Virus record (IMG/VR): IMGVR_UViG_3300025162_000093
Span: 1-42,020 of that record
Direction: 5' to 3' (one strand)
Source of the DNA: a virus
DNA: 42,020 nucleotides
The translations under genes and the position numbers were made by a program. The notes beneath the pieces were generated by a model. It saw only the letters and a program-made list of their open reading frames with translations. It did no database searches and was not told the DNA's origin. Positions 1 to 42,020 of this stretch are shown piece by piece (within the stretch, counting starts at the first letter, position 1; every line of letters begins with the position of its first letter).

Positions 1-133
1 ACTTTGCTTTTTTTTTGGCTGACTTGCTTGGATATTATCGTCTGCCTCTTGTTTAGCTGCCTGTGCTTTCTCTTGATCCGCAGCTGATGGCTGTTCCCCA
101 TCATCGCCTACATCCAATGGCTTTTTGTTTGTA
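1..133. repeat. Left copy of terminal overlap (circular join)
   Basis: Positions 1-133 repeat 41887-42020 apart from one base in a homopolymer: 9 T at 8-16 here against 10 T at 41894-41903. The repeat lies inside a coding gene whose frame continues across the join. It therefore looks like the overlap of a circular (or circularly permuted) assembly. A genuine short direct terminal repeat cannot be excluded from sequence alone. Unit length is about 41,887 bp. Confidence 0.9.
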
Positions 134-1488
134 TCTATTGCTGTTGATGGGGTTGTTGCGATAGAGTTGTATTCCTCCTCACTCATCTCAGGGAGATGGA
201 GGAGTTGTCTGATATGATTTTCTGTCTCGTAGTTTGGTTTGATAACTCATGCTGTCGCCATCTCTGCCATTGATTTTCCGAATGCCGTAACATCAACGAA
301 TCAAACTTGTCAGAATTTCAGTCTTGGCATTCTCTCTGTTTCACCGAAATTCAATGCCACAATCTTTGGAATCAAATATCTATTGATGATCTCAACATCT
401 TTTTCCAAGTATCATTTGACCGCTTGATAGAAAAATTCTGTTGATGTACTAGCCATTCAGTATGATCATTTCTCTGATTTTCCAAGATAGAGGAATTGCT
501 CGAAGAAGATGTCGTTGATATTTTGTTGGTATTGTTGGATAGCTTCTTGTAGTTTGTTTGCGTTGTCGCCGATATTTGTCTGCATCCATTCATAGCCGAC
601 TAATGCTGTACCTTTATCAGGATCAAGATATTCAGTAACATATCCGCTCTCTAGGCTTCTCATATTCTTTGCTATTTCGTTATATTTTGCTACTTCATCG
701 TCAAGCGTTCATTGTGGCACTTTCACTTTCAATGGTGGAATTGCCAATCTCTCTTGGAGGACTGCATGATAGTTCTCGAATTTATCTTTGAAGAATCGGT
801 CTTTTGCTATCTTACGATACAATCCCCATCCTTCGTAGTTTGTTCATTCAGCATTGATATTGAAAAGGATTAGTTTGTTTGCAGGGACATTGATAGTACA
901 AAATCATTCGTTCGCTTCAGGATCATCTGTCTCTTCTTTACCTTTAGGATAGTAAGCAAGTTGTTGTATTCATGGCTCATCTTCTGATGTTCTTCGTCTG
1001 AAGACTGTCTCACAAGCTATTCTAGTCAATTGTGGATAGAATCAACCATTTTTTTTCTCAAAATACAATTCAAACAAAGAAAAACCATCTCTAACATAGA
1101 GGTTTATATCGTCCAATAATCATTTGAATCACTGATTGAGTTTCTCGAATAACGCATCTTGTACAAAGTCTGCAATAACTTTATCTTGTGGGGTTGGCTC
1201 TTTATCGTCTTCAGTAAATGGATCAACGAAGAAATTAGTTGCTGATTTGGTCAAAGCGATAGCGTTCCTCATTTGGAAGACCTGTCCATCATTATCCATC
1301 CTCATAAATAATTGTTGTCTCTCATATTTGCTTTTGAATCTGTCTGAGTATTCCTCAAACAAAAAACCGTTGCTTTGTTTTGTACCAAATCCCGATTCAC
1401 GGATAAACAAAAACTTCGTCTTCTGTTGCTCATCGCTATTTATGGAGAAAGCTTTTATTGCACTTTTGATTTTGTCGATTAGAGCCAT
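1..1488 (-). CDS. Portal protein, N-terminal part of a portal-MuF fusion (continues at 42020-40766)
   Basis: Portal of the Mu gp29/DUF935 kind, which forms the ring at the capsid vertex that DNA passes through. The start is ATG at 1488, three bases after the terminase stop. With TGA as Gly the frame stays open to position 1. A portal-like core includes NKLILFNINAEGTNYEGWG, and the tail is acidic/Ala-Gln rich with a Lys run. Counting across the circular join (1488-134, then 42020-40766) gives 2610 nt, exactly 870 codons, so portal and MuF read as one 869-residue protein. This depends on the T10 run at 41894-41903. If the run is T9, as at 8-16, the portal stops a few codons later and MuF is separate. 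Confidence 0.85.
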
Positions 1489-3643: not shown

Positions 3644-4897
3644 TTAAGACTCATCAGATAAAATAATGCTTATGTCAATGTCCCTGTTTAGACACTTAAT
3701 TTCCTTCTCTCAATTAGAGTATTTATGGAATCTTTTGATGATTACTTCAATATACATTGGATCAAATTCCATTCATAAACAAACTCTATTGTTTGCCTCA
3801 CAGGAAATAAGTGTCGATCCTGATCATAAGAAATAATCTATCACCATATCGTGTATCTTAGAAGAATTTAGAATTGCATTTGTTACAAGTGCAACTGGCT
3901 TCATTGTCGGATGAGATCAATCTGAATCTCTTCATATCTCCCAAACAGATTTTGTAAAATCTCATTTCCCATAAAAATTGTGGTTCTTCTTCCATCAATA
4001 AGCTATTGGCTCATGCCTATAATCGTAATCTAATCTTCACATTGAAAATACTGGGGTTGGCTTCACTCGTATTAGTTCGTGCTTAACCTGCCAGTTCTCG
4101 CCCATCATCATCATCATCATCATCATCATCTGATCTCATCACTGAGGCATTGTTAAATAAAAAGAACAGTCGTCTTTTGCGTTGTCGTATAGATTTTTAA
4201 ATACTGGCTTCCGAATATCTTTTGCAATGTCTCCTACTGTCATATCATCATTTTCTATGTGATTGTATTTTTTGTTGCCCAATACTTCATTTTGTTTTTT
4301 TTCATAATTTACTGAATAAGGCGGATCAGTAAACACCATGTCTGCCTTCTTGCCATCCATGAGTTTGTCTACCATTTCCTTTACTGTACTATCTCAACAC
4401 ATTATCCTATGGTTACCTAACTGGAATATATCTCCAACCTGGACAATCTTTGCGGTTGCACTTCCTTGCCCCCCCCCCGCATCTATATCATCTTCTTCGG
4501 GATTGTCATCATTGAATATCTCCATGTCTATTTCCATCGCTGGTAGATCCATCGCTTTGATCTGCTCCAATGTGAAATTATCCTTAATCAATTGGATGTC
4601 TCGCTCTCCATATTCCACATTGTCCTTGATAGCTCTCTCCTCCATAATGTCCTCTGCCAGATCCTCATCGATGTCGATCCAGTCATCAGGGATGTCTTCA
4701 TATCATAGTGCTATCAGTCATTTGAGTCTCTGATTCCCTGCATAGACGATGTACTGGTCTCCCACATGATTGACCAACATCTTTCTCTTCTTCAGGAAGT
4801 CGGAATCTTTCTGTAAGGATTTCTTTAATAGATCAAGATTCTCATCCGTAATACTCCTGGGGTTTTTTCATCGGAATGATAACTGGCTAGACTTCAT
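3644..4897 (-). CDS. ParB-like domain fused to DNA N4/N6 methyltransferase
   Basis: 417 residues. The N-terminal ParB/Srx-like domain (about residues 10-90) shows VYAGNQRLKGLIALGYEDIP. It is followed by an acidic linker and a beta-class DNA methylase: motif IV DPPYSVNY near residue 190, then FSMGRLDYDYRHEPI, then motif I DYFLGSGSTL near residue 354 and VCLGMEFDP. TGA gives Gly at SMGR, FLGSG and CLGME, all strongly conserved. A run of nine Met codons (plus-strand CAT x9 at 4103-4129) follows QGGDQ; I recall poly-Met here in related methylases. It probably methylates phage DNA against restriction. Confidence 0.9.
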
Positions 4898-12782: not shown

Positions 12783-13037
12783 TTAGGAATTAAGTATTAG
12801 ATAATTTTGTAAATCTTTGTCAGATATTTTTCACACATACGGTTTAGTATTTCATATTGGAGTTTGTTTATATCAAAATTCTGTATGTGCTATTCTATAT
12901 CTATCCCCTCTTAATGTTCAGTAGTATTCCAATAAGTATTCATTCTCTACTCGCCGATATAGATGTCTTGTGTGTTTTCTTATTATGTTTGGAAATTTAC
13001 CAAATTCGGTTATCTCTCTATTCTTTGGTGCTTCCAT
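12783..13037 (-). CDS. Hypothetical protein
   Basis: 84 residues, four TGA codons. Basic and aromatic-rich (FPNIIRKHTRHLYRRVENEY). It begins two bases after the stop of the zinc-finger gene. No domain recognised. Confidence 0.65.
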
Positions 13038-14596: not shown

Positions 14597-15076
14597 TTAC
14601 GATTCTTCCGAAACGTTTCATGTGGATTTGTTATGGTTAAAATGATCAAAGACCTCGTCCATATTTTTTAAATATCTTTTGCCTCTTTCGTGATCTACTT
14701 CTTCTTTTGACATCTTTACAATCCTATTTATATCTCAGCGGAAATGATCTCTTGGTTTATTATCAGGTACTTCAGCATTTCTAATTCATCTCTTGAGCTG
14801 TACTCTATCGAAATCACGAATAAGTTCCATGAGGTTTCCTTTCCCGATCAGTTTTTTTTTTGCTTCTTTCTCAGGATCAATTGGTTTTGGCTCTTCTTTT
14901 TTCTCCTCTTCCTTCTCCTCGAAATCTTCTGCTGATCTATGTTGATGTGCAAATTGTGGGAATTTCTTTGGTATTTTTACCATTTCATCCGTTATAGGTG
15001 GAAGATTCATCGTATGTACTTTCTGTTGTGGCTTTGGTTTCTCGGGGAGAAAGCCTAGTCGTCTTAATATACTCAT
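14597..15076 (-). CDS. Hypothetical charged protein
   Basis: 159 residues, three TGA codons. A Pro/Lys/Glu-rich low-complexity middle (EEKEEEKKEEPKP) and a basic C-terminal half (DHERGKRYLKNMDEV). No recognised fold. It lies in the DNA-metabolism run, before the transglycosylase. Confidence 0.7.
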
Positions 15077-26198: not shown

Positions 26199-27635
26199 TT
26201 AAATAGTTATTTGTATTATGTTCCCATTATTACCTGCTCCACCTGCTGTTGCTCATCATCCGCCAGAAGCACCACCCGCTCATCAAGTAGTAGTTATAGT
26301 ACCTAGAGTTATAAGAGTATGATACACTAATATAACACTTCATCATTGTCAACCCGCTCCACCTCATCAAGGAGAGCTTGCTCATCATCATCCACCACCC
26401 GCTCATCAAGTAGTAGTTATAGTACCTGTATTATTGAATGTTCAAACAGCAATAAATATTGTTCAGCCATTCCCACCCGCTCATCATCATCCCCCATTTC
26501 CTCATCAACCGTTTGTATAATATTGTGCTCATCCACCTCCACCCCCGCTACTAGCTCATGGGAGATACTGAGTAATAGGTTGAAAAAATTGAAAAGTAAA
26601 AAATCATGCAGGTCGATAAGATTTATTATAAAATGGTCATCTTGTACTCGTTCCTGCTACTCATCATATTCATCATGTACCAGTAGATGTACAACCAGTT
26701 CAGCCAATAGATCAATTTACGTTTGAAAATGAGTTACTGACTGATGTACCAGCTCAACCATCCCCCCCATTTCCATAACCCCCATTAGCTCAACCACTTC
26801 CTCATCACAATTCAGTTCATAGGGTTCAAGAATGTAATGCAGATCATCAAGTTCAACCAATAGGTGATCAACCCTGTCAACATCCACCACCCGCTCATCA
26901 CACATTACCATTTCTACTAATTATTCCGTTATTTATTAGTATTCATTTTACATAAATTTTATATCAATTTGGATTAAGTATTTGGCTTATAGGTATGGTT
27001 AAATTATTGTAGTACATATCTCTAGTTAAAGTTACTGTTCAAGAAATGGTCACATCTCAATCAGATCAATCTCAAAAAGCTCTCATAAAATTTATCATAG
27101 CTAAACTTGTTGGAATTTCCGTATCAACATTATTTACTGTTGTTTGTATAGACTTTAAACTATCTTTCAAAAGTTTTCCAGTAGCTCAATCGTACAAAGG
27201 AAGATTATTACTTACTGCTCCACTTGGTCAGTTCATATCGCCAGTACCCACATATCCGCCAAATACAGAAGCTTTGTAATTTGTGATACTTACCACATCT
27301 CACGATGCAGTTACCACTATTGCAAGCAACGCCTTGTTTGAATCTGTTGCACTTGCTACGGAGATCACTCAAGAAGAATCAATCAGAATATATTTCGTTG
27401 AGTTGTCTGCTATTACTAGGTCAGTCGTTCACGCATATATTCCATAGTTTCCATGTACTGAATATGGGAACGCTCCAATATCTACTTTCAATGGAGATCA
27501 AGATTGAGCAAAAGAGACACGACCAATGTCGTCTCAATTCTGATAAAGACTATCAAGCTCTGCGTTTATTTGTTGCAGTCTTGTTGCTGATATTTTATCT
27601 CCTGTTGCTCGATTGGTTGATTGTGTTCTTGGCAT
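26199..27635 (-). CDS. Glycine-rich tail adhesin/fibre with TGA-coded poly-Gly
   Basis: 478 residues with about 57 in-frame TGA codons by hand count. The N-terminus, TGDKISATRLQQINAELDSL, and residues to about 210 look like a fibre base (TKYILIDSSGVISVASATD). The C-terminal 230 residues hold repeated glycine tracts such as NVGGAGGGCGQGGSP, ASSGGGGGGAQYY and TTTGGAGGGGGGASSPGGG, separated by short variable polar loops, ending NNGNIIQITI. This recalls phage adhesins built of poly-Gly type II helices (T2/S16 gp38-like). The likely role is host-surface recognition. Confidence 0.8.
26270..26304. repeat. 35-bp direct repeat, copy 1 (inside glycine-rich gene)
   Basis: Identical to 26393-26427, 123 bases away. 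On the coding strand both copies encode GTITTTGGAGG. Typical of domain duplication in glycine-rich adhesins. Confidence 0.85.
26393..26427. repeat. 35-bp direct repeat, copy 2 (inside glycine-rich gene)
   Basis: Second copy of the repeat at 26270-26304, in the same reading frame. It could support recombination that changes the number of adhesin loops. Confidence 0.85.
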
Positions 27636-30828: not shown

Positions 30829-33690
30829 CTAAAATCATTCAAAACTATACTGTCATTTGAATTGCTGTACCATAGCATTGGCAAATCTTTTGGCTGCCTC
30901 ATCATCTGTGCCATATAGATTTCCGATATTTATTACGATTCAACCTCAGCCTCTCATTTCAACAGGGATACTACTACCATTTGGTAGTGGGACAACCGCT
31001 TCGTTGTATTGTCATTCTCCAATCAGTCATAGTGTTGGAGAAGATACGATCCCTCCAGTAGCGAATGGGGTTATTCCTCAAGATATTACTCAACCATCGG
31101 CATATCATTTAGTGGTACTTGCTCTCATGGATACAGTAGAAAGTCTGTTTGCTGCATCTACGGCTTTCTGAATTGATGCAGCTAGTCCATCATAGTAGGA
31201 TTTCATGTCGTCTACTTTCTGCTTTGTTAGATTTGCTTGATCTGTTAATCAATCAGCGTATTCTTTGAATCACTTTTGTACTTGAAGTTTTATCGCAGCT
31301 TGTGCTGCTGTATATGCTGCCGTTATCTGAGTTTGTTGATTTTTCACTGCTGATAATTCATTTTGTAATTGAGTTTGCTTATCGTTATATTGTTGTTGTT
31401 GTAATTGTTTTGTCGTCTGATAATCCTCTAGTTGTCTTTGTATTTCTGTTAATCAAGCTCTTCTTTGTGCTTCAGCTATTTCTGCTGTCAATGTAATTTT
31501 CATCCCCGCAGTATCATTTTGTGCAGCGACCTCAGTAGTAAGTTGTGTTTGAAGATCAAGAATCTCTTGTTTTGCTTTTGCCTGCGATTGTAGATCATTC
31601 AAATAACTATCTTTTGTACTATCATTTCCTATTGCTGCATCAGCTTTGAGTCTATCAGCTATTCTTGCATTTATGTCTGTTAATTTTTTCTGTGCATCAT
31701 CGACAGTTGTATCTCAAGTGACTGCTAGTTTATCAGCTATCTGCTTTTTGAGATCAGCAACCTTTTTATCTTGGGCGATAATTTCTTCCGCCATAGTCTT
31801 ATTATTGTCAGCAGTATCGGTTGAGTATTGTTTATTTATATCTGATAACTGTTTCATAATGTCTTGTGCTTTTGTTTTCAACGAATCCATATCATCTTCA
31901 AATTTCTGTTTCAGGTTGGTCAATGAATCCATAGATTTTGTGCAAAAATCTTGGAAATCTTTTTTCATATCTTTTGTATAATCTTCTACTTTTTTTGCAG
32001 TTCATGAAGTTGCAACTGCTAGATTTCACGCTGCATTTGCAGTATCTCAAAATGTTACTCATAATTTTTTTAATGAATTTGTAGCATCATCGGCTACCTT
32101 TTTTTGGTCTGACTGTGCTTTTGTAAGAGCCACAACAGAAGATATAGACTTCAATATGTTTGCATCAAGTATACCTCAAGCAGATCATTGACCATATACT
32201 TGACTTCAAAAACCATTTTGTTCGACAGCAGTTCTTTTAGTTTGTTCTGCTTGTTGTTCTACCAATAGATTTTTTGCGGCTGTCAAAGTTGCATTCAATG
32301 ACAACGTTGCAGCATCAGCTGCATCTTTTATTTTCATGAGTTCTGCCACCTTCTCTTTTGATGATAGATTACTTCAATTTACCTCTACTATTTTTGCTCT
32401 CATTTCTTCGAGAGTCATTGTGGTATTATTCAATTTCCCTTGTAAATCTGTCTGATCGGTTTTTAATCTTGCCGTCCCTGCTTGATAATCTCATAGTGTT
32501 ATGATTCATCTATCGTATTCATCTTTTAATTCTGCCTGTTTATTTTTATTTTCAGTCAATGCAGATTCCAGTTCTGTATATGATTGTGATGTACCTTTAT
32601 TCGCTCCCTCCAATAATTTTACTCAGATCACAAGTGCTGCGATACCTGCTATAACGAGACCAATAGGTCAAGTCAATACCGCCAATGCAACCTCTATTCA
32701 TCAGCATGCTGCGACCGCAATAGCACCAAATGCTTCAAATCATGCAATAAGCGGTCATATTGCAAGTCCTACTGCTGCTATAAGTACAAGTAATCATGTA
32801 ATTGCGGCTGCGACTATCAATATATTTTTGGTTAATTCTTTGTGTCATTCAACCCACGTTTCTATTCACTTTACTATCGGTTGAATCGTAGCCATCAATC
32901 AAGCTAATGCTGGTTGCAATGCTTCTCCGACTGATCTCTTCATCTCATCGAACTGTACATTCAAAGCATTCATCTGACCTTCGAATGTTGCTGCGTTTGC
33001 TGCTGCGGATCATCCAAATTCTTTTGCTAATTCATCCAAAATAACTTTCTGAGCTCAAAACATATCTCAGCTTTTTTGTAATGTTTTAATTTGATTTTCT
33101 TGTTGAGCAGTGAATTCTACACCGACTCTATGCAATCTTGTATATCACTTTTCAGGATCATTCAATGCTATTCCTAATCTCAACGCCGATTCCCTTGCTT
33201 GATCAGTAGATGGGACAAGACCACCATTCATTGCGGTTGCCATATCTATCGCTGCTTTTGTGGCATCAGGAAATGCCTTTGATCAAACCTGTGTAAAAGT
33301 AAGCATCATATTTTCTGCCGACATCACGACCTCATCTTGTATTCATGAAGCAATAGAAAGCTGTGAAGCGAGTTCGCTTAATGATTTTGTAGTCATTCAC
33401 GAAGCATCGTTTGTTGATTTTAATGCCGCTCACATTTGTGCCATAGCTCTTTGATAGTCCTCAGCAGCCTTTATTGAACTTTGCATAAACGAAGTAATCC
33501 CTGCGAAAGCTAGTCACGCAGCGATTCATATTGCAGCAAATCATTCTCTATTTTTTTTTGACCAATCTTGTAGTTTTTGTGAATTAGTTTGTGCTGCCGT
33601 AGTTACTCAGTCGATATTTTTTTTTATATTATTCAAAACTGGGGATGCCGAATCCGTAGCCGAAACAACGAAATTCATGTTATCTGCCAT
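30829..33690 (-). CDS. Tape measure protein
   Basis: 953 residues, the longest tail gene. Sets tail length and enters the host envelope with the DNA. The N-terminal region (FAGITSFMQSSIKAAEDYQR) matches the TP901-like start of tape measures. A hydrophobic stretch follows (LLVLIAAVGLAIGPL and onward), then a long coiled coil rich in Q, K, D and A. The end, GGIVSSPTLGLIGEGQYNEA with VVPLP and VIVNIGNLYG, is a typical C-terminus. At about 0.15 nm per residue it predicts a tail near 140 nm. The start overlaps the end of the frameshift product upstream. Confidence 0.9.
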
Positions 33691-34266
33691 CTCCCGAGTT
33701 TTTTAAGCGGTTAAATATATCGTTTTTATGAGAGTTGATATTTTGTTCTTGACGTTGAATATATTCTTGATTGGATTTCTCCACAAGATACATCCAACAA
33801 TTATCTCTAAATGATTTTGATGTCTCTAATAGTTGTGTCTCGCTCCAACCGAATTCCTTGCAAAGTGAAATGTTAATGTATTCAAAGAATCGAGTCGGAT
33901 TAACTTCTTCAGGTGAAATTCAAGAAATTAGCTTTCCTCGATATTTTTTTTTTCTTGTGCAGCATTCATATTTAAGAGTCCACTTGTTTGAATAATTTTA
34001 GTTACATCATTGAAGTTGATAGGAAGTGCAGCAAAGTTATCGAAAGTTACTTCCAATGGCTCATCACCATCTGTTAGATTCCAAGACTTTATCAGTCAAA
34101 ATGCCATCTTCAAAGAAGATTCCAAATCGTCTTTTGCTCACTGATAACCTCACATAATAGTCTGCTGATCAAGAATAGATAATTTACATTTTACTTGAAC
34201 GAGTATACCATTACTGATCTCGATTTCTTGGGTGTCATCTTTCATCAAATCGTTTACATCAATCAT
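33680..34266 (-). CDS. Tail assembly chaperone, -1 frameshift fusion (GT-type)
   Basis: 195 residues if the ribosome slips back one base on the A10 run (plus-strand T10 at 33944-33953), an A AAA AAA slippery heptamer. 587 nt plus one re-read base is exactly 196 codons. After the slip the sequence is KKYRGKLISGISPEEVNPTR and continues to SGDGR, ending inside the tape measure start. It has the same order and mechanism as lambda G/GT. The T part should bind the tape measure and recruit tail tube subunits. Confidence 0.75.
33928..34266 (-). CDS. Tail assembly chaperone, unshifted product (G-type)
   Basis: 112 residues: MIDVNDLMKDDTQEIEISNG at the start, ending QEKKNIEES at TAA (33928-33930) just after the slippery A10 run. 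TGA gives Gly in IMGGYQGAK. Position directly upstream of the tape measure, size and acidic helical composition fit gpG-type chaperones, which are made in excess over the fusion. Confidence 0.8.
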
Positions 34267-34292
34267 TAGAATGGGAATAAGGAATAAAATAA

Positions 34293-35762
34293 TTAACCAG
34301 TGTATTGCGTTCATGCTTGGTCATTGATTACTACGACTTGCGTAGAATAACTGTTGCTGAATGAGTATTTTGCTATACCTGTTAATTTTGCTTTGATTAC
34401 TTCGCTTGATTTATCAGTAATGACGTATGTTTCAGATACTACTTCAGGGAAGATAATCTGCATTCTGTATGTTTGATTCAATGTGTCAGTTGCTGATACA
34501 ATCTTTGCCATATCAAACTGCAAAACATAAGCGTTGGATGATACTCTTCTTTGTGCATCTCTATCTACATTGTCTTCGTATGCTTTGTCTATCTCTACCT
34601 TTACATCCAATCCTGTTGGCGTAGCTATGTTTTTCTTGTTTTGTATAATCTCTTCTACATTTTTATCGAATGTTAATACTATTTGCTCGAAATCTATTGG
34701 AGCAGCAGTCAATGCCGTAGTAACGTCTGCACCTCTCTTCAATGAAACATTAGAGAAAGAGAAGAAGTCTGTTGATACTAAGGTCGCCGTTTGCTGAACT
34801 AATTCGACTTTTGTCTGATTTGCTACTGTCATTGCAGTAGACGTGATGAGATCGTTTCCAATCACATCATTATCAGCATCAATATATTTTGTGACTACGT
34901 CTTCAGTATTTCCCAATGAATTGGTATATCTGATTGTATCGCCTGCGATCAATCCTCTGACTGTTCTTTCTCCACAATATGTCATGGAAATTTGGTTTAC
35001 TGTACCACCTGTTCCGACTGTACTTGATACTGTACAATCTACATCGACAGTTGTACTGTTTACAACAGTTATTACTTTCCAATAACCATTATATGCAGTG
35101 ACACTATTCCCTGCAACCTTAACGAGATCGTTTACTACTAATCCATGTGTCGCAGTTACCAATCTCAATAATCCGTTTGTTGGAGTTGCTGAAGTTATGG
35201 CTTTTGTTGATGCTTCAACCTTTTCGTTAGCAAATAAGAAAGCTACATCAAACATACCTTGAGCCTTCAAGACATTTTCCAATTTTACTATATTTTTACT
35301 AGAGATTGTCATCTTTGAGGAATTAGGAACGACACCAAATGATCTCTGAACGATGATATTGGTTTTGTCTGTAGATAATTCACATCAACCTTTTTTGTTC
35401 TCGATAGTTACTGACTTATAGCTACAAACATAATCAGATATGATGTGTTTGTAAACTGATCCATCAGTCAAAGAAGAAACATCTGACGATGCAAGACTTC
35501 CCAAGAGCATATAAAATCGCATTACGATATTTCTTGGATCAACCTCCACATTAAGTCAGCCCTCAATTTTATTTGGTCATTGAGCGACATACATTTTGTT
35601 ATTGAGAATGTTGAATCTACTATCAGAAGAGATATTTGTAACGTTCTTCATCAATGAGTTTTCCACCTCAGGGATGAATTTGTTTGGCATTTTGGGCGTT
35701 CCATTAGTGTCCTCCAACCTTCGGGCGGTGTACACTGCTTTTGAAGAAACTACTCATGACAT
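34293..35762 (-). CDS. Major tail tube protein
   Basis: 489 residues. The start ATG TCA TGA reads M-S-G (SGVVSSKAVYTARRLEDTNG), and the whole frame up to TAA is open only under code 25. The body is rich in beta-forming Thr/Val/Ser (ISMTYCGERTVRGLIAGDTI) with a C-terminal QVVVINDQAGTQYTG. Large for a tube protein, which suggests an added surface (Ig-like) domain. Assigned from its place between head-tail joining genes and the chaperones. No sheath gene is present. Confidence 0.75.
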
Positions 35763-40765: not shown

Positions 40766-42020
40766 CTATTCAATAGCATTTTGCAATCTTGATATGATTT
40801 CTTCGTTCTTATCTTTTCTCGCACCATTGAGACTATCGTTATTTGCTTGCCTCCAATCAATCTCTTTTTGGATCTGAGACGATGCAGCACTTCATGCTTT
40901 CACCATCGGAGCTTTTAGATATGCTCAAGATGTGAGCGATGTCTTGACTGGAATCTCGTCAGATATATCTGTCAGATCGGGCTTGAAATCTTCATCGTCA
41001 TTGATGAAAACCCGCATACAACGACAATTTATATGATTTGGTGGGCTATAATCATCATATTCAGACGAATCCAATTTGACTACCTGTGCATCCAACGACA
41101 TACAATAATCACATGTAACGTCATCCAATATCGCTGAGTATTGAGCAGCGTAAATCTTATCAGAGTTGATATATGCCACAGATTTTCTTCACGAATTGAA
41201 TGCTTGGTCGATAGCGATAGTTGATAACAATCCACCTGCCTGATCCAAGTATGGTTGGACTGATTGCTTGACTGCTAGTACCACATCGGAAGCGACTGTA
41301 TTCTTCACTCCTACATTCTTCTCGATAGCAGTAGCGACAATAGTCTTTGTATTGGATTCCACTTTGCTTGTAATCCCTGTTGCGATATTGTCTGCGTGTA
41401 TCTTGATAACATCTTTCAAATCTTTTTTGCTTGAAGGTATCTCTACACCTATTTCTCTACTGGCTTCGTTTTTCCCATAATCAAACATCTTCTTGTATGA
41501 TGATGATACAAGAGCGGATATATCTGCACCATATTTAGCAGTCAAATCAACAATAGCATTGATGTCGTTCTTCTCTACTGCTACTCTGACTTGAGCCAGT
41601 AATTTGTCTGACATATTATTACTTATTTCTGAGTATTGTTTTACGATTGAATCCTTTTCGCTTTTCAGATTGTCTTTGATTGATGTGAATGCTACTCTAC
41701 GTTCTGCGAATGTCAAAGGTCTTCGGAATCCTCATAATATAGGATCAGAGAAATTACGTTTTGCTGTTGAGTTCTGTGGTGGTATTCCTGCAATCTGATG
41801 TTGGATAATAGCTTCATGGTCAAAAGTAAATACCATTGGCTGACACTTATCGCATGTACATTTCTTCGTATGTTTTTTAGTTACGGACTTTGCTTTTTTT
41901 TTTGGCTGACTTGCTTGGATATTATCGTCTGCCTCTTGTTTAGCTGCCTGTGCTTTCTCTTGATCCGCAGCTGATGGCTGTTCCCCATCATCGCCTACAT
42001 CCAATGGCTTTTTGTTTGTA
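40766..42020 (-). CDS. MuF-type head morphogenesis part of the portal-MuF fusion
   Basis: C-terminal part of the protein that begins at 1488. After a Cys-rich linker (KKCTCDKCQPMV), RRPLTFAERRVAFTSIKDN and a long helical region lead to YAAQYSAILDDVTCDYCMSL and YSPPNHINCRCMRVF, the MuF/SPP1 gp7 signature (tCdyC, H.nCrC), which probably binds zinc. If the T10 run at 41894-41903 is really T9, this part would start on its own at ATG 41836 (356 residues). MuF proteins are minor head proteins injected or needed for packaging. Confidence 0.85.
41887..42020. repeat. Right copy of terminal overlap (circular join)
   Basis: Repeats 1-133 with one extra T in the run at 41894-41903. See the left copy. 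Confidence 0.9.

Follow-up and report, generated by a model that had tools for sequence, protein, structure and literature searches.

The portal protein and the MuF domain of this phage appear to be encoded by a single gene, and comparison with two independent relatives, both of which carry the same gene unbroken, indicates that the fusion is real. The linker between the two halves contains a run of 10 adenines (A10) on the coding strand, which is predicted to leak a portal without MuF, since this phage has, in its tail chaperone gene, a conserved A10 that must slip.

A portal-MuF frame across the contig ends

The window (the whole stretch of DNA analyzed, 42,020 bases) is a phage contig, and sequence comparison of its two ends showed that they repeat each other. 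The 133 bases at the start correspond to 134 bases at the end, with a single difference, the length of a T run (T9 at positions 8-16 in the start copy and T10 at 41894-41903 in the end copy); the 117 bases past the run are identical in the two copies. An earlier note on this DNA had described a frame of 870 codons running from the portal into MuF across the circular join, with A10 at the joint, and had seen A9 in the other copy, with which the portal ends early. Both observations were reproduced. When the minus strand is read across the join with the T10 copy and genetic code 25, it contains a single open frame (870 codons, counting the stop) that encodes a fusion of 869 amino acids (MALIDKIK...SRLQNAIE; ATG at 1488, stop at 40766), whereas with the T9 copy the portal frame terminates in ...QPKKKQSP followed by TAA. 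Across the contig ends, the 3′ part of the gene connects with the start copy at about window position 134. The parts of the gene are as follows.

1..1488, minus strand: portal part (5′) of the fusion gene, with the ATG at 1488, residues 1-496 (T9-copy reading), open in code 25
40766..42020, minus strand: end of the linker and MuF domain (3′ part), with the stop at 40766, open in code 25
41894..41903, minus strand: A10 run in the linker, in the phase xxA AAA AAA AAA Gxx, codons 491-494
8..16, minus strand: A9, the start copy of the linker run, where the frame is broken and the portal ends PKKKQSP

Most genes of the window lie on the minus strand, with TGA read as glycine. Opposite these TGA codons, the relatives show TGA (98) or glycine (91) in 189 of 232 comparisons, an alignment indicating that code 25 is correct for the phage. 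The hosts are presumed to be bacteria that read TGA as glycine, most of them uncultured. A search of the window for tRNA genes found none. One open reading frame (ORF) of 478 amino acids (26199-27635, minus strand) contains 57 TGA codons read as glycine, at a much higher density than in other genes, and looks like a glycine-rich repeat (fibre- or collagen-like) protein.

The portal half matches the Pfam family Portal_Mu (PF06074; 59-420, E 2e-28), with 100.1 bits against a gathering cut-off of 23.9, and the PHROG portal family phrog_113 (6e-48). The MuF half matches Phage_Mu_F (PF04233; 1.9e-9), likewise above its gathering cut-off (38.7 bits versus 29.6). According to Pfam and PHROG profiles, the fusion is flanked by a terminase upstream and a Mu-type protease downstream, and terminase, portal/MuF, protease is the usual order of a head module. 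Two genes upstream of the terminase, a 417-amino-acid ORF (3644-4897) contains a G10 run on the coding strand (C10 on the plus strand; 4469-4478), which is possibly hypermutable.

Fused genes in two relatives

Two independent relatives, about 60 to 70% identical (64 to 69% in the portal halves), were found. One (L002, IMGVR 3300033512_000657) has an unbroken portal-MuF gene of 843 amino acids. The other has an unbroken gene of 850 amino acids, present in two records (L003 and L004, IMGVR 3300035396_000576 and 3300033420_000436) that carry the same gene and were counted as one relative. Both domains score above their Pfam cut-offs in the ORFs of both relatives, so that portal and MuF lie in one uninterrupted frame there as well as in the A10 copy of the window. 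Our comparisons thus cover three phages, at the level of sequence. The earlier note had left a choice between a true fusion, two genes, and a slippery site giving both products, and the refutation that it named included separate portal and MuF genes in all relatives. This is not what was found: the fusion stands, since both relatives are unbroken, and the two-gene option is contradicted in each of them.

Because the relatives are fused and one of them has A10 in the same phase, we infer that A10 is the state of the joint and that the A9 at the contig start probably arose as an error in assembly or in the reads, or else is a minor variant. The T10 run opens the last 127 bases of the contig, which would suit an assembly-graph break at k=127, but the overlap differs by one from that expected, and this was not used as evidence. 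A single homopolymer error of this kind would make one fused head gene appear, wrongly, as two.

Further searches returned few sequences. An exact search for the joint sequence with variable run length retrieved the window itself alone. Searches of viral collections with alignments of portal, MuF, terminase, and capsid and with a degenerate portal pattern gave the same two phages again, together with a 4.4-kb contig that has a capsid gene like that of L003 and no portal, and no relatives were found in bacterial genomes. A distant MuF match that uses the standard code (L013) likewise encodes portal and MuF together, in a frame of at least 590 amino acids that lacks a long A run.

Among the three phages, the collapse of conservation is confined to the linker, past the portal core, and solved portals align with L002 residues 19 to 445. 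The longest linker A run measures 10 bases in the window, 10 in L002, and 7 in L003, ending in the same codon phase in all three, so the run sought by the earlier note in related phages was recovered in one relative, at the same place in the linker, and was shorter in the other. An AlphaFold model of the L002 fusion, built from an alignment of four sequences, had a mean pLDDT of 35, too low for use. A short CxC motif (CTCDKC, CGCG, and CGC in the three phages) is retained just before the MuF domain, although the linker is otherwise variable; it lies at about 41843-41860 in the window and at the equivalent places in L002 and L003 and is possibly metal binding.

The A10 run of the tail assembly chaperone

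The same genome has a second A10, in the gene that immediately precedes the tape measure gene (phrog_27166, 9e-29).

33928..34314, minus strand: G-type ORF of the tail assembly chaperone, 128 amino acids
33944..33953, minus strand: A10, where −1 slippage leads into the T-type extension; exactly A10 in all three phages
33680..33943, minus strand: −1 frame extension, 87 amino acids after the run, 51 to 62% identical between the three phages

The chaperone A10 lies at 1077-1086 in G001 and at 12943-12952 in G002. The chaperone ORF ends a few codons past the run, and beyond it the −1 frame is open for 87 codons. Substitutions in the extension, counted by codon position among the three phages (36/17/56, 37/17/49, and 29/12/49), follow a pattern that indicates a protein under selection. 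Since this extension is conserved as a protein and is reached only by slippage, the chaperone A10 must slip, and A10 runs therefore very probably slip in this family of code-25 phages. A mild tendency toward RNA structure after the run was seen in the window alone of the three phages (z −1.7).

With a run, the tape measure gene next to it, and a conserved extension, the arrangement has the features of the lambda G/GT-type −1 frameshift, indicating that the ORF represents the familiar tail assembly chaperone case (PMC5009743). The likeness to lambda gpG/gpGT lies in the position of the A10 upstream of the tape measure and in the conserved −1 extension. The portal-MuF joint would differ from it in that slippage there would part one domain from the other, whereas slippage in the chaperone joins two frames.

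Predicted slippage at the portal-MuF joint

The joint resembles the chaperone site in having an A10 and, in phase, the heptamer A AAA AAA. Stops lie in both alternative frames close behind the run, 3 and 5 codons on in the window and 4 and 7 codons on in L002. We consider the best explanation, with moderate confidence, to be a one-gene portal-MuF fusion in which the A9 copy is erroneous or a minor variant and the A10 leaks as an unregulated by-product. The DNA gateway would be formed by the core of the portal, which extends to about residue 443, and the variable, lysine-rich linker would carry the MuF domain on the portal C terminus, so that MuF would enter the procapsid covalently attached to the portal and not by binding to it. 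Because the chaperone A10 of the same phage must slip, a leak is probably to be expected at the joint, too; by a transcriptional or a ribosomal mechanism, the A10 in this tolerant linker would yield a frameshifted product that ends 3 or 5 residues past the run and lacks MuF. This product is predicted to be a complete portal, since solved portals align only as far as about residue 445 (in L002) and conservation drops thereafter. Each fused subunit would bring its own MuF, and the leak would leave some subunits without one.

The role of the fusion protein, including MuF, would follow that of the SPP1-type MuF family. The MuF protein of SPP1, gp7, attaches to the portal, is taken into the procapsid in small numbers, and helps infection to start (PMC6316719). 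A fusion, by contrast with MuF proteins that normally enter the capsid in few copies bound to the portal, forces one MuF on every subunit unless this is relieved. Such relief is what a programmed site would provide, a possible but less probable reading in which the fusion is real and the A10 is a slippery site selected to set the ratio of portal-only to portal-MuF protein. RNA polymerase would slip on the run, or ribosomes would shift −1 on A AAA AAA, and either frame would meet a stop; the outcome would be a mixed portal ring with MuF on some subunits only, a ratio that is sensible given the few gp7 copies entering via the SPP1 portal. The known parallel is dnaX of Thermus thermophilus, where transcriptional slippage on A9 within one ORF gives a truncated product (PMC1088944, PMC5009743). 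The layout is the same: one ORF that carries a long A run, with nearby stops in each of the two alternative frames. The two cases differ in that both products have been shown for dnaX, whereas the short product at the phage joint is a prediction.

Several observations on A runs argue for selection of the site. The joint matches the conserved chaperone site of its own genome in run length and heptamer phase, and in L002 an A10 recurs at this place and in this phase, again with stops nearby. On the main coding strand of the L002 contig (38 kb), the chaperone site and the joint are the only two runs of A≥9, and runs of A≥8 are rarer than expected in the genes of both relatives (6 versus 11.9 expected and 2 versus 8.0). 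The linker of L002 attains A10 in 6% of synonymous shuffles. An exact A10 in the linkers of two of the three phages, with codon-choice probabilities of 0.16 (window) and 0.06 (L002), hints that the run may be more than incidental.

Other observations count against a programmed site. The A10 of the window by itself fits chance codon choice: 16% of synonymous shuffles place an A10 in its linker, and 3 coding-strand A10 runs were seen in the window against 2.6 expected from the shuffling, which is no excess. No RNA structure was found after the joint run in any of the three phages (z +1.5, +0.4, and +2.1). The run is not conserved throughout the homologues, as a dnaX-type site would be: in L003 the run is only A7, and the −1 frame continues without a stop for 66 codons. 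Long runs are also tolerated elsewhere in the window:

14852-14861, minus strand: A10, the third in the window, midway through a 159-amino-acid ORF (14597-15076)
33617-33625 and 33551-33559: two A9 runs, both within 140 bases of the start of the tape measure gene (30829-33690, minus strand)

No homologue of the 159-amino-acid ORF was found in the contig of either relative, both of which are incomplete. The two tape measure runs would matter if A9 slipped strongly.

A reading of lower probability is that this family of code-25 phages uses A10 slippage twice, once at the chaperone, where it adds a domain, and once at the joint, where it would omit MuF and the homopolymer would set the number of MuF domains per ring. 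If the A10 relieves the constraint of one MuF per subunit in this way, it would be a simple and testable means of setting portal-ring stoichiometry. Neither control of a portal ratio by slippage nor an A10 at a portal-MuF joint was found in the literature searched. Even if the joint is not programmed, a conserved A10 frameshift site is documented in code-25 phages.

It is very unlikely that the true run is A9, with the portal ending in PKKKQSP and MuF starting by itself. Apart from the A9 in the start copy, this reading draws on distant phages with the same portal type, the Andromedavirus-type Bacillus phages (Riggi and others), in which the same Portal_Mu and MuF families are adjacent and follow the terminase in the same order; the genes are separate there, MuF being preceded by a gap and by an annotated ribosome binding site, and identity is about 24 to 25%. 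Against it stand the fused genes of both close relatives, one with A10 in the same phase. In addition, A9 in the linker would break the fusion frame, and the CxC motif and an FDHE motif, which follow the run and precede the MuF domain, are conserved in that frame. The next methionine codons in the MuF frame lie at residues 513, 505, and 568 in the three phages; since these differ, MuF lacks a conserved start codon.

Long A runs mutate readily, and A9 and A10 both occur in one assembly, precisely at the contig break, as would be seen if a hypermutable (phase-variable) run toggled MuF on the portal in a population of A9 and A10 genomes; we give this little credence, because slippage on 10 identical bases during sequencing or PCR accounts for the same observation and the exact search for the joint returned no second member of such a population.

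The fusion is a new case of a type already described, and a slippery A10 joint, if real, would be a variant not described before in the literature searched. Portal-MuF fusions are known from Microbacterium phages of subclusters EA3, EA5, and EA8 and of cluster EB (PMC7302621), which likewise have one gene for portal and MuF-like functions among the virion structural genes. Those are phages of Actinobacteria, and the description by which we liken them to the window phage mentions no slippery run at the joint (PMC7302621). The PHROG family phrog_2662 (“portal protein,” 717 positions) is a portal family with a MuF-like C-terminal part, to which the MuF half of the 869-residue protein matches at positions 490-704 (4.6e-5); the match covers this half only, whereas the portal half matches phrog_113 instead.
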